Source: Verrucomicrobiota bacterium
GTDB taxonomy: Bacteria; Verrucomicrobiota; Verrucomicrobiia; Opitutales; Opitutaceae
Direction: 5' to 3'
NCBI GenBank assembly: GCA_003402695.1
Contig: QQNC01000003.1
Span: forward strand, 1-41,506
DNA length: 41,506 nucleotides
Shown here: positions 13,751-22,619 of the stretch, one piece after another
How the letters are laid out: each line of letters starts with the position of its first letter
Position numbering within the stretch: position 1 is the stretch's first letter
Translations under genes and position numbers: made by a program
The notes under the pieces: generated by a model
The model's database searches: none
Told to the model about the DNA's origin: nothing
The model's input: the letters and a program-made list of their open reading frames with translations, nothing else

Positions 13751-14749
13751 TCAGAACAGTGAGTTCGCGACGATGCCGACGGCGGTGATCGGGCCGGAGT
13801 CGCCGAGGCCATCGATGGCGCGGTCGGCCTTCTTGAGCGTACTCTGCGCGGTGTTGTAGAGCGTGTCGTCGTTAATGAGCTTGCCGAGCGTGCCCTCGCC
13901 CTTGGCGAGCTTGTCAGAGACGGCGCGGATGTTCGCGACGGAGGCCTTCAGGTTGTTGGCGGAGGCCTCGTCGTAGACCAGCGCCCCGAGGGTGCCCTTG
14001 CCGGACTTTATCTGGGCCATGACGGCCTGTGCGTCGGTGACGAAGGTCTTGGCTTCGGCGGCGGTGGACTTGATCTCGCTCACCGCGGCGACGAGTTCGT
14101 CGTGCAGGGCGGGGTCATTGATGAGTTTGCCGAGCGTGCCCTCGCCGCTGTTCAGCTTGGTGGTGATCTCCTGCAGGTTTGTCATCGTGGCGGTGATCTT
14201 CTCGCCGTTATCCGTGATGACCTTGTCGAGCTTCTGGAACAGGCCCGGTGACTTGCCGTCGCCGCTGATCGCGGTGCTGAACGAGCTGAAGGCCCCCTCG
14301 AGTTTCTGGCCGAGGTTGCCGATCTCGGACATGATGGTGTTGATGTCGGGCGTGGCCTGGGTGTGGATCTCGGACCCGGGGACGAGCGGCGCGGCGCCCG
14401 CGGTGCCGAGCTCGACGCCAATGTAATTCGTGCCGATGAGGCCGGCCATGACGATGCTCGCGGTGGAGTCCCCGGGGATCTGGATGTTGGGCTCGATCTG
14501 CAGGGTCGCCACGCCGCGGCGGTGGGTGAGATCGAGGTGGGTTTCCAAGACGGAGCCGATCGTGACGCCAGCCATGCGGACCTCGTCGCCCTTCTTGAGC
14601 TCCTTGAGGCTCTCGAAGCCGGCGATGAGCTTGTAGCCCTCGCTCTTGAAAATGCTCCCGCCGCTGAGGGTGGCGAACGTCACCCAGGTCAGGGCGAGTC
14701 CAAGGACGAAGAAAAGCCCGACGCGGGCGGTCTGTTGTGAGTTGTTCAT
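13751..14749 (-). CDS. mlaD: MlaD-family (MCE domain) substrate-binding lipid transport protein
   Basis: MCE proteins form membrane-anchored hexameric rings that pass lipids between the inner and outer membranes. The 332-residue protein has an N-terminal membrane anchor (about 9-29), an MCE domain (about 38-115, with LKKGDEVRMAGVTIGSV and GLIGTNYIGVELG), a linker, and a helical C-terminal region with three copies of a GxGTLGxLxxD unit at 201-212, 249-260 and 284-294. Such repeats occur in other long MCE proteins; E. coli MlaD (about 183 residues) lacks this tail. It is last in a four-gene operon with spacings of 1, 1 and 4 bases. A GGAGA upstream, inside mlaF, may be its ribosome site. Confidence 0.9.
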   Translation of the reverse strand: MNNSQQTARVGLFFVLGLALTWVTFATLSGGSIFKSEGYKLIAGFESLKELKKGDEVRMAGVTIGSVLETHLDLTHRRGVATLQIEPNIQIPGDSTASIVMAGLIGTNYIGVELGTAGAAPLVPGSEIHTQATPDINTIMSEIGNLGQKLEGAFSSFSTAISGDGKSPGLFQKLDKVITDNGEKITATMTNLQEITTKLNSGEGTLGKLINDPALHDELVAAVSEIKSTAAEAKTFVTDAQAVMAQIKSGKGTLGALVYDEASANNLKASVANIRAVSDKLAKGEGTLGKLINDDTLYNTAQSTLKKADRAIDGLGDSGPITAVGIVANSLF

Positions 14750-14753
14750 GGTG

Positions 14754-15560
14754 TCAGGTCTCCAATTGCTTAAAACGGGGGTGCTTGAGGTCGAACTTGG
14801 GCGCGAGGAAGTCGGCCACGATGGGGTCCTTGGGCTGTTTCAGCTCCGAGGGCGGGCCGAGGAAGATGAGCTTGCCGTCCATCAGGATGCCGACGCGGTC
14901 CGCGATGTTGAGGGCGAGATCGCGGTCGTGGGACACGACGATGGTGGTGACGCGGTACTCCTCGCGCAGGGAGGCGATGATTTCGCTGATGGTGGCCGAC
15001 ATCACCGGGTCGAGCTCGCTGGTGGGCTCGTCGTAGAGCATGAGCTGGGGCTCCATCACGAGGGCGCGGGCGATGGCGACGCGCTTCTTCATGCCGCCGG
15101 ACAGGTCGGCGGGGAATTTCTTCGCGGTGCCCTCGAGCGAGAGGATTTTCAGCGCGTGCATCACCTTTTGGCGGATGCCGGCCTCGTCGGCGAGGCGGTG
15201 CTCACGCGGGTAGAGCGCAAGGTTGTCGTAGACGCTGAGCGAGTTGAACAGCGCCCCCGACTGGAAGACCAGCGCCATGTGCACGCGCTCGCGCGTCACC
15301 TCCGAGGCGGCGTCATGGCCGTCCACAGTCACGCGGCCCGAGGTCGGCAGCTCGAGGCCGACGATATGCTTGAGCAGGACGCTCTTGCCCGAGCCGCTGG
15401 GGCCCATCAGCACGAAAATCTCGCCGGGCTGCACGGCGAAGGAAACGTCCTTGAGCACCTTGAGGCTGCCAAAATTCTTGGTCAGGTGCTCGACGGTGAC
15501 GCCGACCGCCGGGATCTCGACCTGCGTGAACGGATTGCGGGTGTGGGAGGTGCCGGACAT
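14754..15560 (-). CDS. mlaF: MlaF-family ABC transporter ATPase
   Basis: Cytoplasmic ATPase powering the MlaE permease. In the 268-residue protein, Walker A GPSGSGKS is at 53-60, the Q-loop glutamine at 100, the signature LSGGMKKR at 153-160, Walker B LMLYDEP with catalytic Glu178 at 173-179, and the switch histidine H211 in VVSHD. YDEPT in place of the usual LDEPT, and MKKR after the signature, are typical of the MlaF/Ttg2A group. It continues about 60 residues after the switch histidine. It starts 1 base after the mlaE stop. Confidence 0.93.
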   Translation of the reverse strand: MSGTSHTRNPFTQVEIPAVGVTVEHLTKNFGSLKVLKDVSFAVQPGEIFVLMGPSGSGKSVLLKHIVGLELPTSGRVTVDGHDAASEVTRERVHMALVFQSGALFNSLSVYDNLALYPREHRLADEAGIRQKVMHALKILSLEGTAKKFPADLSGGMKKRVAIARALVMEPQLMLYDEPTSELDPVMSATISEIIASLREEYRVTTIVVSHDRDLALNIADRVGILMDGKLIFLGPPSELKQPKDPIVADFLAPKFDLKHPRFKQLET

Positions 15561-15561
15561 G

Positions 15562-16314
15562 TTACGTGAGGATTTGCGTGACGAAATAATCGAGCACGAG
15601 GATGAGGATCAGGGAGACGACGACAGCGCGGGTGACGGAGGCGCCGATCTCGCGCGGGCCGCCGCGGGTGTTAAGGCCGATGTTGCAGCAGACGAGCACG
15701 ACTACGAAGCCGAAGATCTCCGCTTTGACCAAGCCGTTGAGCACATCCTTGAAATGCGTGTAGTGCCGCAGCACGGCAAAGTACGCCTCCGGCTCGATGC
15801 TGATGATCGCGGTGTATTTCGAGACGAGCGCGCCGCCGAACCAGCCGACCAGGTCGCCGATGAGCGCGAGCACCGGCACCATCACGAGCGAGGCGGCGAG
15901 GCGGGGCATCACGAGCATCCGGGCGGGAGGGATGTTCATCGTCACGAGGGCATCGACCTCCTGGTAGACCTTCATCGAGGCCAGCTCGGCGGCGATGGCG
16001 GAGCCGACGCGGCCGGCGACGAGGATGGCCACCATCACCGGGCCGAGCTCGCGGGCCATCGAGAGGCCGACGAGGGAGCCGATGAACTGCTGCGTGCCAA
16101 AATTCTGCATCGAATAGCCCGCCTGCAGCGCCAGCACACTGCCGATGAAGAAGCTCAGGATGGCGACGATCGGCAGCGTGGTGTAGCCGATCATGTAGCA
16201 CTGCTCGATGAAGCGCCCCCATTGCCGCGGCAGGGTGCCCGCGTAGCCAATGGAGCGGATCAGGAGCTGCAGGGTGCTGCCAAAACCCTCAAGGATGGCG
16301 GTGATTTGTTTCAT
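15562..16314 (-). CDS. mlaE: MlaE-family ABC transporter permease
   Basis: Inner-membrane permease of the MCE lipid transporter. The 250-residue protein has five or so hydrophobic segments and the diagnostic block ARELGPVMVAILVAGRVG (about 87-104) followed by AAELASMKVYQEVDAL, matching the MlaE/YrbE consensus around the coupling helix. Typical family length is about 255. It lies 1 base after the WP-repeat gene and 1 base before mlaF, so all four genes are almost certainly cotranscribed. Confidence 0.93.
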   Translation of the reverse strand: MKQITAILEGFGSTLQLLIRSIGYAGTLPRQWGRFIEQCYMIGYTTLPIVAILSFFIGSVLALQAGYSMQNFGTQQFIGSLVGLSMARELGPVMVAILVAGRVGSAIAAELASMKVYQEVDALVTMNIPPARMLVMPRLAASLVMVPVLALIGDLVGWFGGALVSKYTAIISIEPEAYFAVLRHYTHFKDVLNGLVKAEIFGFVVVLVCCNIGLNTRGGPREIGASVTRAVVVSLILILVLDYFVTQILT

Positions 16315-16315
16315 G

Positions 16316-17797
16316 TCAGAGGGCCGGAGGGGGAAGGTTGTTCACTTTGGGCGGGAAATCGAACCAGAACCAGTGGGAGCGCGGCTCGCCGGGGTCGCGT
16401 TTCCAGCCGAAGAGACCGTTGCCGAAGGCGACGCGTTTTGACTCGGGGCGCGAAGAGGTGCTGAACAGCGGGCCGAGATGAAACTCCTTTTCGTCGTACT
16501 CGTGGCGCCAGGTCACCGCCCGCCAGAGGAGCGACCAGCGCTTGTCGTCGGGCGCGCGCTGGTCGGAGCGGTAGAGTGCAAACAGGGGAGTCCATGTCTC
16601 GCGGACGGTGTCATTCTCGGGGAAAAACACGTCCAGGGGGCTGAACAGCTGGAACTGCCGGCGGCCCGCGCCATTGTCCCACTTGCTGAAGAACGGCCAG
16701 ACATGGGTGCGACCGGCGGGCGCCGCCGCGGGATTGGTCAGGCTCCGCTGCTCGAGGGACCAGTAGAGCAGGTAGAGGAACTGGGTCCGGGTCTGCGCCA
16801 CGCCGGAATCATCCCACTTCGCCCGGCGCACCAAGGGCCACAGGTACCAGGTCTTGTCCATGCCCTTGATCACCGAGTGCGTGTAGAATGGGCCCCAGCG
16901 GTTGACCAAGCGGTTGTCGCCCTCGCCCTGCACGAAAAACGGCCACAGGTAGCGCTGCTCGTGATAGCGATAGGGCAGCGTGCGGTCGGTGTAGCCGAAA
17001 AATGGCCAGACATAGTTTTCGTCCACGAATCCGTCGCGCCGCTCGTGGGTGTAGAATGGGATGAAGCCATGCTGCCGGGTCGGCGGCGTGCCGGCGGGGG
17101 CGTCCTCCGCAGGCTGGATCGTGTTGTTCCAGGCGAGCGGCCAGAGATAATAGGATTTGTGGAACCGTTCGGGCCGGTCGCGCCAACCGAACAGCGGCCA
17201 GAGCGCGAAGCCGGTTTCCCGGCCCCGGGTGGACTGGATGAACGGCCAGGGCGTGGAGGTCGTGACCGAGCCGTTTTTCTCCGATCGGAAATACAGCGGC
17301 CAGATCACCCAGGAGAGCTCGTCCTTGCCGAAGCGGTGCTTGATGTTCCCCGCGATGGGAAACAGGGCGCGGTAGGAGGTCTCCGGCGAACCGGTCTGCC
17401 GGGAAAACCAAAAGATCCACAGGTCAAAGGCCTTGGTCTGGTCCGTGGAGGCGGTCGCCTGCTGAGGTCCCGCTCCCGTGATGAGATTGAGCACCGTCCA
17501 CTTGTAGGTGTCGGAGTCCGCCCGGTAGGTGAAGACGGGATAAAGCACCGACGCCACCGTGGTCCGTCCGGCCGTATCCTTGGTTTGGACAAAAAAAGGC
17601 CGCACCCCGGACACCGTTCCGCCGTCGGGTCCGGGTTTTTGGAAGACCAGCGGACCGACGCTTTCCGACGAGGTGACATGGCCCGCGACGTCCACCTGGG
17701 CGACGTGAGCCGGCCAGAGATTGCGCTCCTCCGCCCCGGCCCGCGCACAGAGCGCGGCCAGGCAGCAGAAAACGGCAATCAGACGGGCAATAGGCAT
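16316..17797 (-). CDS. secreted WP-motif repeat protein heading the mlaEFD operon
   Basis: I do not recognise a named family. The 493-residue product has a signal peptide (MPIARLIAVFCCLAALCARAGA, cleaved near residue 22). The mature part carries many units of about 20-30 residues centred on (L/V/I)WP(L/F), for example IWPLYFRSEK, PWPFIQSTRG, LWPLFGWRDR, LWPLAWNN, VWPFFGYTDR, LWPFFVQGEG, LWPLVRRAKW and VWPFFSKWDN, with polar turns between. This pattern of short aromatic strands and charged turns suggests a beta-rich periplasmic or outer-membrane protein. Only 1 base separates it from mlaE, so a role as the outer partner of this lipid transporter is an attractive inference. No lipobox is seen, and the last residue is Leu, not Phe. 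Confidence 0.72.
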   Translation of the reverse strand: MPIARLIAVFCCLAALCARAGAEERNLWPAHVAQVDVAGHVTSSESVGPLVFQKPGPDGGTVSGVRPFFVQTKDTAGRTTVASVLYPVFTYRADSDTYKWTVLNLITGAGPQQATASTDQTKAFDLWIFWFSRQTGSPETSYRALFPIAGNIKHRFGKDELSWVIWPLYFRSEKNGSVTTSTPWPFIQSTRGRETGFALWPLFGWRDRPERFHKSYYLWPLAWNNTIQPAEDAPAGTPPTRQHGFIPFYTHERRDGFVDENYVWPFFGYTDRTLPYRYHEQRYLWPFFVQGEGDNRLVNRWGPFYTHSVIKGMDKTWYLWPLVRRAKWDDSGVAQTRTQFLYLLYWSLEQRSLTNPAAAPAGRTHVWPFFSKWDNGAGRRQFQLFSPLDVFFPENDTVRETWTPLFALYRSDQRAPDDKRWSLLWRAVTWRHEYDEKEFHLGPLFSTSSRPESKRVAFGNGLFGWKRDPGEPRSHWFWFDFPPKVNNLPPPAL

Positions 17798-17963: not shown

Positions 17964-18920
17964 CTAAACCTCGAGACTTCCACCGGGAGCCAGCACGCGA
18001 AAGCTTTCCGCGGACAGCCCGGCCTCGGCCCGCGCCTGTTCCAACGCCTGGATCGGGTGCTCACGGCCCTCGTCCGTCAGTTGAAAGGTGCCCCAGTGCA
18101 TGGCCACGCTGTGGCGCGCGCCGCAGTCGCGGTGGGTCTGCACGGCCTCCGCTGGATTCATGTGCGCGGCCGACATGAACCAGCGGGGCTCGTAGGCCCC
18201 AATCGGGATGAGCGCGAGATGAGGCGCGCCGCAGCGGCGCGCGATGTCGCGGAAGAGGGTTTCATCATAACCTGAGTCGCCTAAAAACCACACCCGACGC
18301 GCCGCCGTGTGCAGATAAAATCCGCCCCATAGCCGCCGGTTGGTGCCGCCGGCGGAGCGCCGGCTCCAGTGGCGGGAGGGCGTGACGGTTACGGTGAGAT
18401 CCGGCGCCAGTTCGTGCGCCTGCCACCAGTCGAGTTGGACAATATTTTTTGCCCCCGCGCCCTTGAGCAGCGCGTGATGCCCGAGCGGCGCGACAAACAC
18501 CGGCTGGTGTTCACGCGCGAGCCGGCGCAACGACGGCAGGTCGCAGTGGTCGTAGTGATCGTGGCTCAGGAGCACCGTGTCGATTTTCGGCAGCGATTCA
18601 AAGGCCACTCCCGGCGCATGCACCCGGCGCGGCCCGGCCCAGCTTACGGGGCTGACGCGCGCGGAAAAAACCGGATCGGTCAGCAGGGTGTGGTGCGAGG
18701 TTTGGAGCAGGAAGGTCGCGTGATTGACCCAGGTGGCGGTGACGCTGTCGTCGGCCGGCGCCGGCGGCGGGAGCGCCGGGTCAATCTTCACCCATTGCGG
18801 CCAGCGCGCGGGCCGGCTGGAAAACTGCCAGCGCAGCACGTCGAGTACGCCGCGCTCTGCCGGCCCGCTGGGATTGAAAAAGGTTTTCCCGTTGAAGTGG
18901 TCGGAGACCGGCGGTGTCAT
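17964..18920 (-). CDS. metallo-beta-lactamase-fold hydrolase, NAPE-PLD-like
   Basis: The 318-residue protein has the metal-binding signature LLSHDHYDH (118-125; H120, H122, D124, H125), a strand ATWVNHATFLLQ with the family's histidine, LLTDPVFS, then FLGDSGYDE with the bridging aspartate and MHWGTFQL near the C-terminus. This order and the WAGPRR segment match the N-acyl-phosphatidylethanolamine phospholipase D-like group of MBL enzymes (UlaG relatives are shorter). Two metal ions are expected. Bacterial substrates for the group are mostly unknown; a lipid substrate is possible. No signal peptide. It is transcribed in the same direction as the mla operon but ends 166 bases before it. Confidence 0.88.
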   Translation of the reverse strand: MTPPVSDHFNGKTFFNPSGPAERGVLDVLRWQFSSRPARWPQWVKIDPALPPPAPADDSVTATWVNHATFLLQTSHHTLLTDPVFSARVSPVSWAGPRRVHAPGVAFESLPKIDTVLLSHDHYDHCDLPSLRRLAREHQPVFVAPLGHHALLKGAGAKNIVQLDWWQAHELAPDLTVTVTPSRHWSRRSAGGTNRRLWGGFYLHTAARRVWFLGDSGYDETLFRDIARRCGAPHLALIPIGAYEPRWFMSAAHMNPAEAVQTHRDCGARHSVAMHWGTFQLTDEGREHPIQALEQARAEAGLSAESFRVLAPGGSLEV

Positions 18921-21274: not shown

Positions 21275-21425
21275 GGTGCAGGGTCCGCAGCTTCGGGGGC
21301 AGGCGGAGAGGGGGTCAAGCCTGTGTTCAACGGCGCGCCAACTCCGGCAACTCGCAAGTTTTTTACCGCAAACGGCCGGAAATGAGGTTGCGGGGCGGGG
21401 GAGGGGGAGTTTGGCTGCTAGCAGC

Positions 21426-22619
21426 ATGGCCCTAATCACATCTGCATCAGGTCAATCCACGGGCGGGCTGCTCGACGGCTCACCAAAGAATCGTACCAAC
21501 CTGAAGACGGCGCAGACTTTAGCGAAGCTGAAGTCGCTCGAGAAAAAATCGAAGAGTTACAAGCTCCCCATGGGCGAGCTGGCCATTTTCACCCAGCAGC
21601 TGGCGTCGCTGCTCACCGCCGGCCTGCCCCTCGTGCAATGCCTCGAGGCCCTGCAGGATCAGACGGAAGACCAGTGCTTCCGCATCGTCATCCGCGACGT
21701 CCGCACGGACATCTCGTCCGGCAATTCCTTTTCCTCCGCCGTCCGGAAATTCCCGAACTCCTTCAACACCCTCTTCGTGTCCATGGTCGAGGCGGGCGAG
21801 GCGAGCGGCGGCCTGGCGGAAATCCTGATGAAGGTGGCCGGCTATTTCGAGGCCACGGTCAAGCTGACCAAGAAGGTGAAGTCCGCCATGACCTACCCGA
21901 TCGCGGTCATCGGCCTGGCGATCGCCTTGGTCAACGTCCTCCTGATCTTCGTGATCCCCGTGTTCGCGGCGATGTTCGCGGACTTCGGCGCCAAGCTGCC
22001 CGCGCCCACGCAGTTCCTCATCGATTTGTCCAACTTCATGAAGAACATGCCGCCCAAGATCGGCGGCTGGACCCTCGCCCTCGGCGCATGGGCGGTCTAC
22101 TATTTCGGCGGCAAGTACATCAAGACGCCCAACGGCCGCCGTCAGAAGGACAAGCTCCTCGTCCGGGCGCCCATCTTCGGCAACCTGGTGCACAAGATCG
22201 CCCTCTCCCGCTTCTGCCGCACCTACGCGACGCTCATCCGTTCCGGCGTGCCCATCCTGCGCACGCTCGAGATCGTGTCGAACGCCAGCAACAAGGTGCA
22301 GATCGAGGGCGCCTGCTCGGAAATCGCCAAGCACGTCAGCCAGGGCGGCCAGGTCTCCGAGGTGCTCGCCGCCAATTCCTTTTTCCCGCCCATGATGAAG
22401 CACATGGTCAAGGCCGGTGAGGCCACCGGCAACGTGGACGGCATGATGAGCAAGATCGCCGACTTTTATGACGTTGAGTGCGAGGCCACGGTCAGCGCGC
22501 TCACGTCGCTGATCGAGCCGATCCTCATCGTTTTCCTCGGCGTGGTGGTGGGCGGCATCGTCATGGCGATGTTCCTTCCGATCTTCCAACTCGGCGCGGT
22601 CGCGGGCGGCCTGCAATAA
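21426..22619 (+). CDS. type II secretion / type IV pilus inner-membrane protein (GspF/PilC family)
   Basis: The platform protein of type IV pilus and type II secretion machines contacts the assembly ATPase and pilin. The 397-residue protein has two T2SSF domains: the first begins LAIFTQQLASLLTAGLPLVQCLEAL (near residue 50), the second RFCRTYATLIRSGVPILRTLEIV (near 270). Three membrane helices are visible, two around 160-200 and 215-235 and one at the C-terminus (LIEPILIVFLGVVVGGIVMAMFLPIF). EAGEASGGL and KAGEATGNVD are paired family motifs. No pilB, pilT or pilin gene is near, so PilC versus GspF cannot be decided. The ATG at 21426 is chosen; upstream reading would run into the tRNA. Confidence 0.88.
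   Translation: MALITSASGQSTGGLLDGSPKNRTNLKTAQTLAKLKSLEKKSKSYKLPMGELAIFTQQLASLLTAGLPLVQCLEALQDQTEDQCFRIVIRDVRTDISSGNSFSSAVRKFPNSFNTLFVSMVEAGEASGGLAEILMKVAGYFEATVKLTKKVKSAMTYPIAVIGLAIALVNVLLIFVIPVFAAMFADFGAKLPAPTQFLIDLSNFMKNMPPKIGGWTLALGAWAVYYFGGKYIKTPNGRRQKDKLLVRAPIFGNLVHKIALSRFCRTYATLIRSGVPILRTLEIVSNASNKVQIEGACSEIAKHVSQGGQVSEVLAANSFFPPMMKHMVKAGEATGNVDGMMSKIADFYDVECEATVSALTSLIEPILIVFLGVVVGGIVMAMFLPIFQLGAVAGGLQ

Follow-up and report, generated by a model that had tools for sequence, protein, structure and literature searches.

A protein of repeated Trp-Pro corners encoded at the head of an mlaE-mlaF-mlaD operon in Verrucomicrobiota

In Escherichia coli, MlaA extracts phospholipids from the outer membrane and MlaC ferries them to the inner-membrane MlaBDEF complex, as outlined in a 2023 survey according to which most diderm bacteria may rely on MlaEFD without MlaA and MlaC (PMC10665443). 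The MlaEFD system of Veillonella parvula is described there as having neither MlaA nor MlaC and as containing a long MlaD, in which an extended helical region is followed by a C-terminal beta-barrel of its own; the same source reports this barrel to be absent from the MlaD of PVC bacteria. A further arrangement is the Mpc system of Brucella, a chimera of Mla and Pqi described as combining a long MCE needle with a dedicated partner on the outer-membrane side (PMC12436622).

The locus described here lies in a stretch of 41,506 nucleotides (hereafter, the window) on contig QQNC01000003.1 of a Verrucomicrobiota bacterium from the Opitutaceae (GCA_003402695.1). As in the E. coli Mla system (MlaFEDB with MlaC and MlaA), mlaE, mlaF and mlaD are found in one operon, apparently together with a dedicated envelope component. 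The window's system differs from that of E. coli in its long MlaD, in the presence of an unrelated, predicted all-beta protein (the WP-corner protein, or WP) encoded by the 5'-most gene, and in the lack of MlaC and MlaA. The preliminary description had seen neither of the latter in the window, and this extends to the whole host genome (92% complete), where MlaC (PF05494) and MlaA (PF04333) have no match. The likeness to V. parvula comprises the missing MlaA and MlaC and the long MlaD with a helical region, whereas no beta-barrel is present in the low-confidence model of the window's MlaD and WP is a separate gene, of which the available text of the survey makes no mention (PMC10665443). The likeness to Mpc lies in the long MCE protein paired with a dedicated partner, which in Brucella is a PqiC-like lipoprotein, unlike WP (PMC12436622).

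Gene order and neighbors of the WP-corner gene

The features of the locus, all on the reverse strand, are as follows:

13751..14749 (-): mlaD, long type, 332 aa; Pfam PF02470 MlaD, 3.6e-13
13754..13795 (-): conserved MlaD C-terminal tail, GPITAVGxxxxxLF; alignment of 73 sequences
14754..15560 (-): mlaF, ATPase; Pfam PF00005 ABC_tran, 2.6e-35
15562..16314 (-): mlaE, permease; Pfam PF02405 MlaE, 3.7e-74
16316..17797 (-): WP-corner protein gene, ATG open reading frame of 493 aa; 5'-most gene of WP-mlaE-mlaF-mlaD
16403..17665 (-): repeat region, residues about 45 to 465, with 21 corner units of ~20 residues each; AlphaFold2, conservation and covariation
17729..17797 (-): putative signal peptide, residues about 1 to 23, with an AxA-type site and without a lipobox; by eye
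17964..18920 (-): metallo-beta-lactamase-fold hydrolase; Pfam PF12706

The Pfam matches place an MlaE permease, an ABC ATPase and an MCE-domain MlaD next to each other on one strand, which is the makeup of an MlaFED/MCE transporter. Among NCBIfam models, MlaE exceeds the cut-off of TIGR00056 (222.4 versus 212.2 bits), and the matches of MlaD to TIGR04430 and other MCE models are all below their cut-offs. By coordinates, one base separates WP from mlaE, one separates mlaE from mlaF, and four separate mlaF from mlaD, in agreement with the spacing and gene order given in the preliminary description. The latter spoke of a protein fused into the operon; the coordinates show instead that WP is a gene of its own within the operon and not a gene fusion. 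Inspected by eye, the N terminus of WP (MPIARLIAVFCCLAALCARAGA-EE) resembles a signal peptide, as had been noted before, and contains an AxA site. A lipobox-like pattern was found in 16 of 184 related open reading frames, within the first 60 residues counted from the first possible start.

A scan for promoters and terminators was uninformative, retrieving one promoter-like site, on the opposite strand (0.6 expected), and eight terminator-like sites (4.1 expected). The gene of the PF12706 hydrolase shares the strand of the WP gene, which it precedes by 166 bp. A relative of this hydrolase occurs at most 600 bp upstream of WP in 36 of the 74 loci with room for it, a count that includes two partial matches with implausible negative distances, and the association of the hydrolase with the WP gene is loose. 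It presumably resembles the NAPE-PLD-type phospholipase family, which would fit the lipid theme. Further along the window, an open reading frame at 21276-22619 (+) reads by eye like a GspF/PilC inner-membrane platform protein of type II secretion or type IV pili.

Repeats and predicted fold of the WP-corner protein

The preliminary description counted a dozen or more WP units, which is more than the nine literal WP pairs present; the broader pattern xP-[FLVIWM], which takes in most of these pairs, is found 17 times beyond the start methionine. The mature chain contains nine pairs; across 20,000 composition-preserving shuffles, the average is 2.4 and the highest count 10. Conservation of the corners is the stronger argument against chance. 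In the family alignment of 155 sequences, 21 corner units were marked, and the corner proline is kept in at least 93% of aligned residues at 17 of them; at the remaining four it reaches 82% at one and is never found at three. Averaged over the 21 corners, residues at -2, -1, +1 and +2 around the proline are hydrophobic or aromatic, with aromatic shares of 56% at -1 and 59% at +2, and positions six to seven residues away are 32 to 52% charged. This alternation suggests a ribbon with one hydrophobic and one charged edge.

WP has no match in Pfam (E ≤ 1), NCBIfam, PHROGs or the sequences of the PDB (phmmer and profile searches), and the Pfam comparison covered PF05494 (MlaC), PF04333 (MlaA), PF03886 (PqiC/ABC_trans_aux) and MORN. 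Ten distant relatives compared with Pfam gave no MORN match either; their only match, to the Cas9 bridge helix with an E value of 0.4, is meaningless.

The AlphaFold2 model of WP (mean pLDDT of 89.0, pTM of 0.73), obtained with an input alignment of 81 sequences from the window and the named genomes, presents 45 strands of four to eight residues, interrupted around residues 388 to 406 by a small insert that is helical. Couplings were calculated on 155 relatives (effective number, 137), which are partly the same sequences as those given to AlphaFold2. With corner positions picked from the alignment consensus ahead of the covariation test, the arch score at the corners is 0.59, and random positions score 0.25 ± 0.08 (p = 5e-5, 20,000 draws). 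Moving the corners by five residues lowers the score to ~0.05, and a second peak appears at a shift of 9 to 10 residues, the site of tight turns. The two peaks indicate a repeating unit of strand, WP corner, strand and tight turn. Model and covariation agree on a predicted meander of ~45 short antiparallel strands with the prolines at hairpin tips, and the elongated shape proposed in the preliminary description is consistent with it.

The same description also offered a barrel-like shape, and an outer-membrane beta-barrel would make WP a lipid pore in the manner of LptD or TGD4, with the repeats as transmembrane strands. An all-beta, apparently secreted and aromatic-rich protein invites this reading, and structural alignment gave weak matches to OmpU (Z = 6.7 over 119 residues) and to VDAC and LptD (Z of about 4 to 6). 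The predicted strands, however, span only four to eight residues, charged positions recur six to seven residues on either side of each corner, and covariation puts hairpin turns at both the proline corners and the tight turns, with ~10 residues to a strand. These features argue against a barrel of this kind, which appears very improbable.

In that alignment, a second look at the structural neighbors, TCP10/G-box (4bxr; Z = 9.1), OspA (8.0), MORN1 (7.8) and junctophilin (7.6) rank above the porins and VDAC (Z of 5 to 7), though the values are close. TCP10, OspA, MORN proteins and junctophilin are single-layer sheets or rows of short antiparallel hairpins. WP would share with TCP10/G-box, OspA and MORN (6t68, 7rw4) a hairpin-row sheet (Z of 7 to 9), and it differs from them in the conserved-proline WP corner and in having no Pfam or PDB sequence match. 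The likeness is weak, as these Z values are near the background stated for the tool and possibly reflect a mere common arrangement. A re-examination of MORN structures questions, in the part available, the lipid binding proposed for MORN (PMC7725318), so that the resemblance of WP to MORN says nothing about lipids. The top 50 Foldseek matches (IFT-A, teneurin, BamB and others) were discarded as repeat-driven, with TM-scores of 0.03 to 0.26 and RMSD values of ~14 to 38. The known unrelated enzyme fold that the preliminary description had named as evidence against its proposal did not appear, as the structure searches gave no clear enzyme-fold match.

Linkage with mlaE and relation to MlaC and MlaA

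WP relatives were sought in the host's order (Opitutales, 177 genomes) and phylum (Verrucomicrobiota, 387 genomes). They occur in 59 genomes of the order, with one match each except for two genomes with two, and in 178 genomes of the phylum (query alignment of 22 members, E ≤ 0.001; a few of the 178 matches are close to this threshold). A scan of 84,980 species genomes retrieved 188 confirmed relatives, and the record titles of the best 80 name members of Verrucomicrobia or Opitutia/Opitutaceae. The neighborhoods of these best 80 of 188 all have mlaE as the next gene on the same strand. The gaps, estimated from the starts of BLAST matches, are at most 20 bp in 78 of the 80 and 123 bp at the largest, and the two genes overlap in 24, by 4 bases in 23 of them.

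Within the order, WP and the WP-type mlaE share contig and strand in 53 of the 59 genomes, 4 to 1526 bp apart by match ends. Among the other six, two have the genes on different contigs (G012 and G008), and three have no WP-type mlaE match at E ≤ 1e-60 (G003, G015 and G148); for G003 and G148, an incomplete mlaE match extends as far as the contig end (L133 and L141), and for G015 it is the WP match that sits at the end of a contig. The sixth genome (G128) has a weak and partial WP match. In four loci of family f20 (L127, L128, L129 and L146), WP and mlaE are about 0.6 to 1.5 kb apart; mlaF was seen and no MlaD match was found nearby in L127, L128 and L146, and neither was found in L129. One of these loci contains a 198-aa open reading frame, of a kind not assigned, between the WP gene and mlaE (L146:2966-3562).

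The linkage reaches far into the phylum. Among 20 distant members (WP matches with E values of 1e-83 to 3e-26), the order WP-mlaE-mlaF is present in 19, with mlaD detected in 18. The MlaE of these 19 genomes is only ~31 to 48% identical to that of the window and the order is nevertheless retained, which shows that the pairing was kept across deep divergence. The lone exception, L193, has no mla match within the fetched 3.5 to 4.2 kb on either side; its family member of 422 aa (L193:4216-5484) could be a paralogue serving a different function or belong to a dispersed operon. The preliminary description had let its proposal stand or fall with homologues lying near mla genes, and they adjoin mlaE nearly everywhere looked at (80/80, 53/59 and 19/20).

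The association extends to the subtype of the permease. An MlaE match of some type is present in all 59 WP-containing genomes of the order, and close relatives of the window's MlaE (E ≤ 1e-60) occur in 55 genomes, all of which contain WP; the 118 genomes lacking WP contain no such relative at that threshold. In an MlaE tree of 67 rows, 16 permeases of the MlaC/MlaA type fall in one starred clade, three N-terminally extended permeases in another, and 48 WP-type permeases in two. The placement of MlaC-type and WP-type MlaE in different clades indicates that whole operons were exchanged, and the swapping of partners on one transporter was rejected on this ground. No history is drawn from the tree, given the two WP-type clades, a long-branch warning and a root that is arbitrary and serves the drawing only.

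WP excludes MlaC completely in the order and partially in the phylum. Across the 177 genomes of the order, MlaC is found in 32, MlaA in 33 and WP in 59, and none of the 59 has either of the other two; for WP and MlaC, Fisher's exact test gives 5.5e-7 with shared ancestry ignored, the genome counts not being phylogenetically independent. Both WP and MlaC are missing from the remaining genomes of the order. The window's own family (f1, phylum sample) is divided into 27 genomes with WP and 10 without, nine of the latter having MlaC and one (G485) neither; two of the 27 have a weak MlaC match (46.6 bits, and 20.1 bits, under the cut-off), near which BLAST found no Mla relatives. Family f21 is also divided, and its genomes with MlaC are all WP negative. 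In the phylum, nine of the 178 WP-containing genomes have an MlaC match, two of them weak, against 21.6 expected (Fisher's test, 7e-5). Four of the nine carry MlaC in a separate, complete operon of mlaE, mlaF, short mlaD (147 aa), mlaC and mlaA (G264, G324, G355 and G484), three have mlaC and mlaA together with no mlaE in the fetched flank (G229, G317 and G414), and two have nothing Mla-like near the match (G306 and G500). The earlier suggestion that WP is the missing partner of MlaFED is supported by the linkage with mlaE as far as a dedicated partner is concerned; replacement of MlaC and MlaA agrees with the order and is less strict in the phylum.

Operon linkage and co-occurrence mean association and not lipid handling, and an elongated ribbon could be a scaffold. 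WP might accordingly be a regulator, an assembly factor or a peptidoglycan spacer without lipid contact, for instance one that guides MlaD through the peptidoglycan. The anticorrelation with MlaC and MlaA and the conserved hydrophobic edge better suit contact with lipid or membrane, and a regulatory or scaffolding role free of lipid contact appears improbable.

MlaD length tracks the type of partner in the operons examined. It is 323 to 356 aa in 73 measured WP operons and 147 to 164 aa in six MlaC-bearing operons (L112, L114, L198, L200, L201 and L203); the open frames of the distant WP operons span 256 to 384 aa, with one of 460. The 2023 survey, as far as its text is available, restricts short MlaD to Proteobacteria (PMC10665443); contrary to this, short MlaD of 147 to 164 aa together with MlaC is also found within the window's phylum. 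The window's MlaD consists of a transmembrane helix, one MCE domain and ~195 residues of mainly predicted helix. Its model (pLDDT of 62.5, falling below 50 at residues 307 to 332) is too poor to be read beyond domain order, with helix predicted nearly to the end and no beta-barrel. The C-terminal tail has five positions that are invariant in the 73 sequences (P320, A323, G325, L331 and F332) and is a candidate docking or membrane-contact element. The host has a second MCE set (L120, G000:C20:3000-12000), composed of an extended MlaE of 375 aa, MlaF, a 333-aa MCE protein whose best NCBIfam match is PqiB, below the cut-off, and an ABC_trans_aux protein; its layout resembles that described for Brucella Mpc (PMC12436622).

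These features of MlaD bear on the possibility that WP is a cap and anchor of MlaD, with lipids passing inside MlaD and none carried by WP. The length of MlaD, its long helical part and conserved tail, and the variation of its length with partner type would all fit, and a precedent is available in Brucella, where the PqiC-like lipoprotein is proposed, in the account at hand, to cap the long MpcD needle (PMC12436622). PqiC and MpcA are, however, lipoproteins of the PqiC kind, whereas inspection of WP by eye shows no lipobox and Pfam gives no match of that kind, and it is not evident why a simple cap should require ~45 strands and a hydrophobic edge running through the repeats. We regard this possibility as unlikely, though it is the main rival to the reading set out below.

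A proposed role in lipid transport

The best reading of these data is that WP supplies the outer-membrane-side leg of the transporter, with a hydrophobic rail as the leading form of this idea. WP is probably, by a modest measure of confidence, the dedicated envelope component of a distinct Verrucomicrobiota Mla-type transporter, where it replaces MlaC and MlaA and offers such a rail. WP, MlaE, MlaF and the long MlaD would together form this one lipid transporter. WP would be exported and fold as a long ribbon of ~45 short antiparallel strands, in which each Trp/Phe-Pro-Leu/Phe corner forms one hairpin tip; with one tip per corner, the proposed ribbon would have a continuous aromatic and aliphatic edge and a charged edge. 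Acting beyond the long MlaD, toward the outer membrane, it would stand in for the shuttle MlaC as well as the outer-membrane lipoprotein MlaA, its edge serving as a rail for glycerophospholipids that links the MlaD ring with the outer membrane.

The linkage in the operon, the one-to-one occurrence with an MlaE subtype and the exclusion of MlaC and MlaA, as observed in the order, support this reading of WP as an envelope component. The hairpin signal at the corners and the hydrophobic positions around them speak for the ribbon. From these we infer the periplasmic location of WP, its binding to MlaD, its contact with lipid and the direction of transport. At 4.7 to 4.8 Å per strand, ~45 strands would extend over roughly 200 Å, near the width of the periplasm, which is a textbook estimate and not a measurement on the model. 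A bolder version, which we put forward tentatively and consider rather doubtful, is that WP represents a fold class new among bridge-like lipid transporters: a beta-ribbon that spans the periplasm, has a continuous Trp-Pro lipid rail and is coupled to an MCE ABC transporter. The known bridge-like lipid transfer proteins (VPS13, AsmA and LptA) are recognized by a continuous hydrophobic groove that binds lipid; in WP, a hydrophobic edge is seen at the level of sequence.

The transporter core is known; in the literature searched, neither the WP partner family nor the rule of its pairing appears to have been described. No published account of the WP protein was found among the papers listed from full-text literature combining Mla or MCE with Verrucomicrobi- or PVC, judged by titles and the beginnings of abstracts and with subscription papers mostly outside its reach, and six terms for mla or lipid transport are absent from the paper on the essential genome of V. 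spinosum. The 2023 survey asks, in its available text, whether non-homologous proteins replace the missing components in the envelope systems of Veillonella (PMC10665443). WP is a concrete candidate for such a non-homologous replacement, widespread in one phylum. Its operon, its predicted topology and the conserved hydrophobic edge, which is open to mutation, give starting points, so that the question of how lipids travel to or from the outer membrane in these bacteria becomes amenable to routine gene deletion and pull-down.
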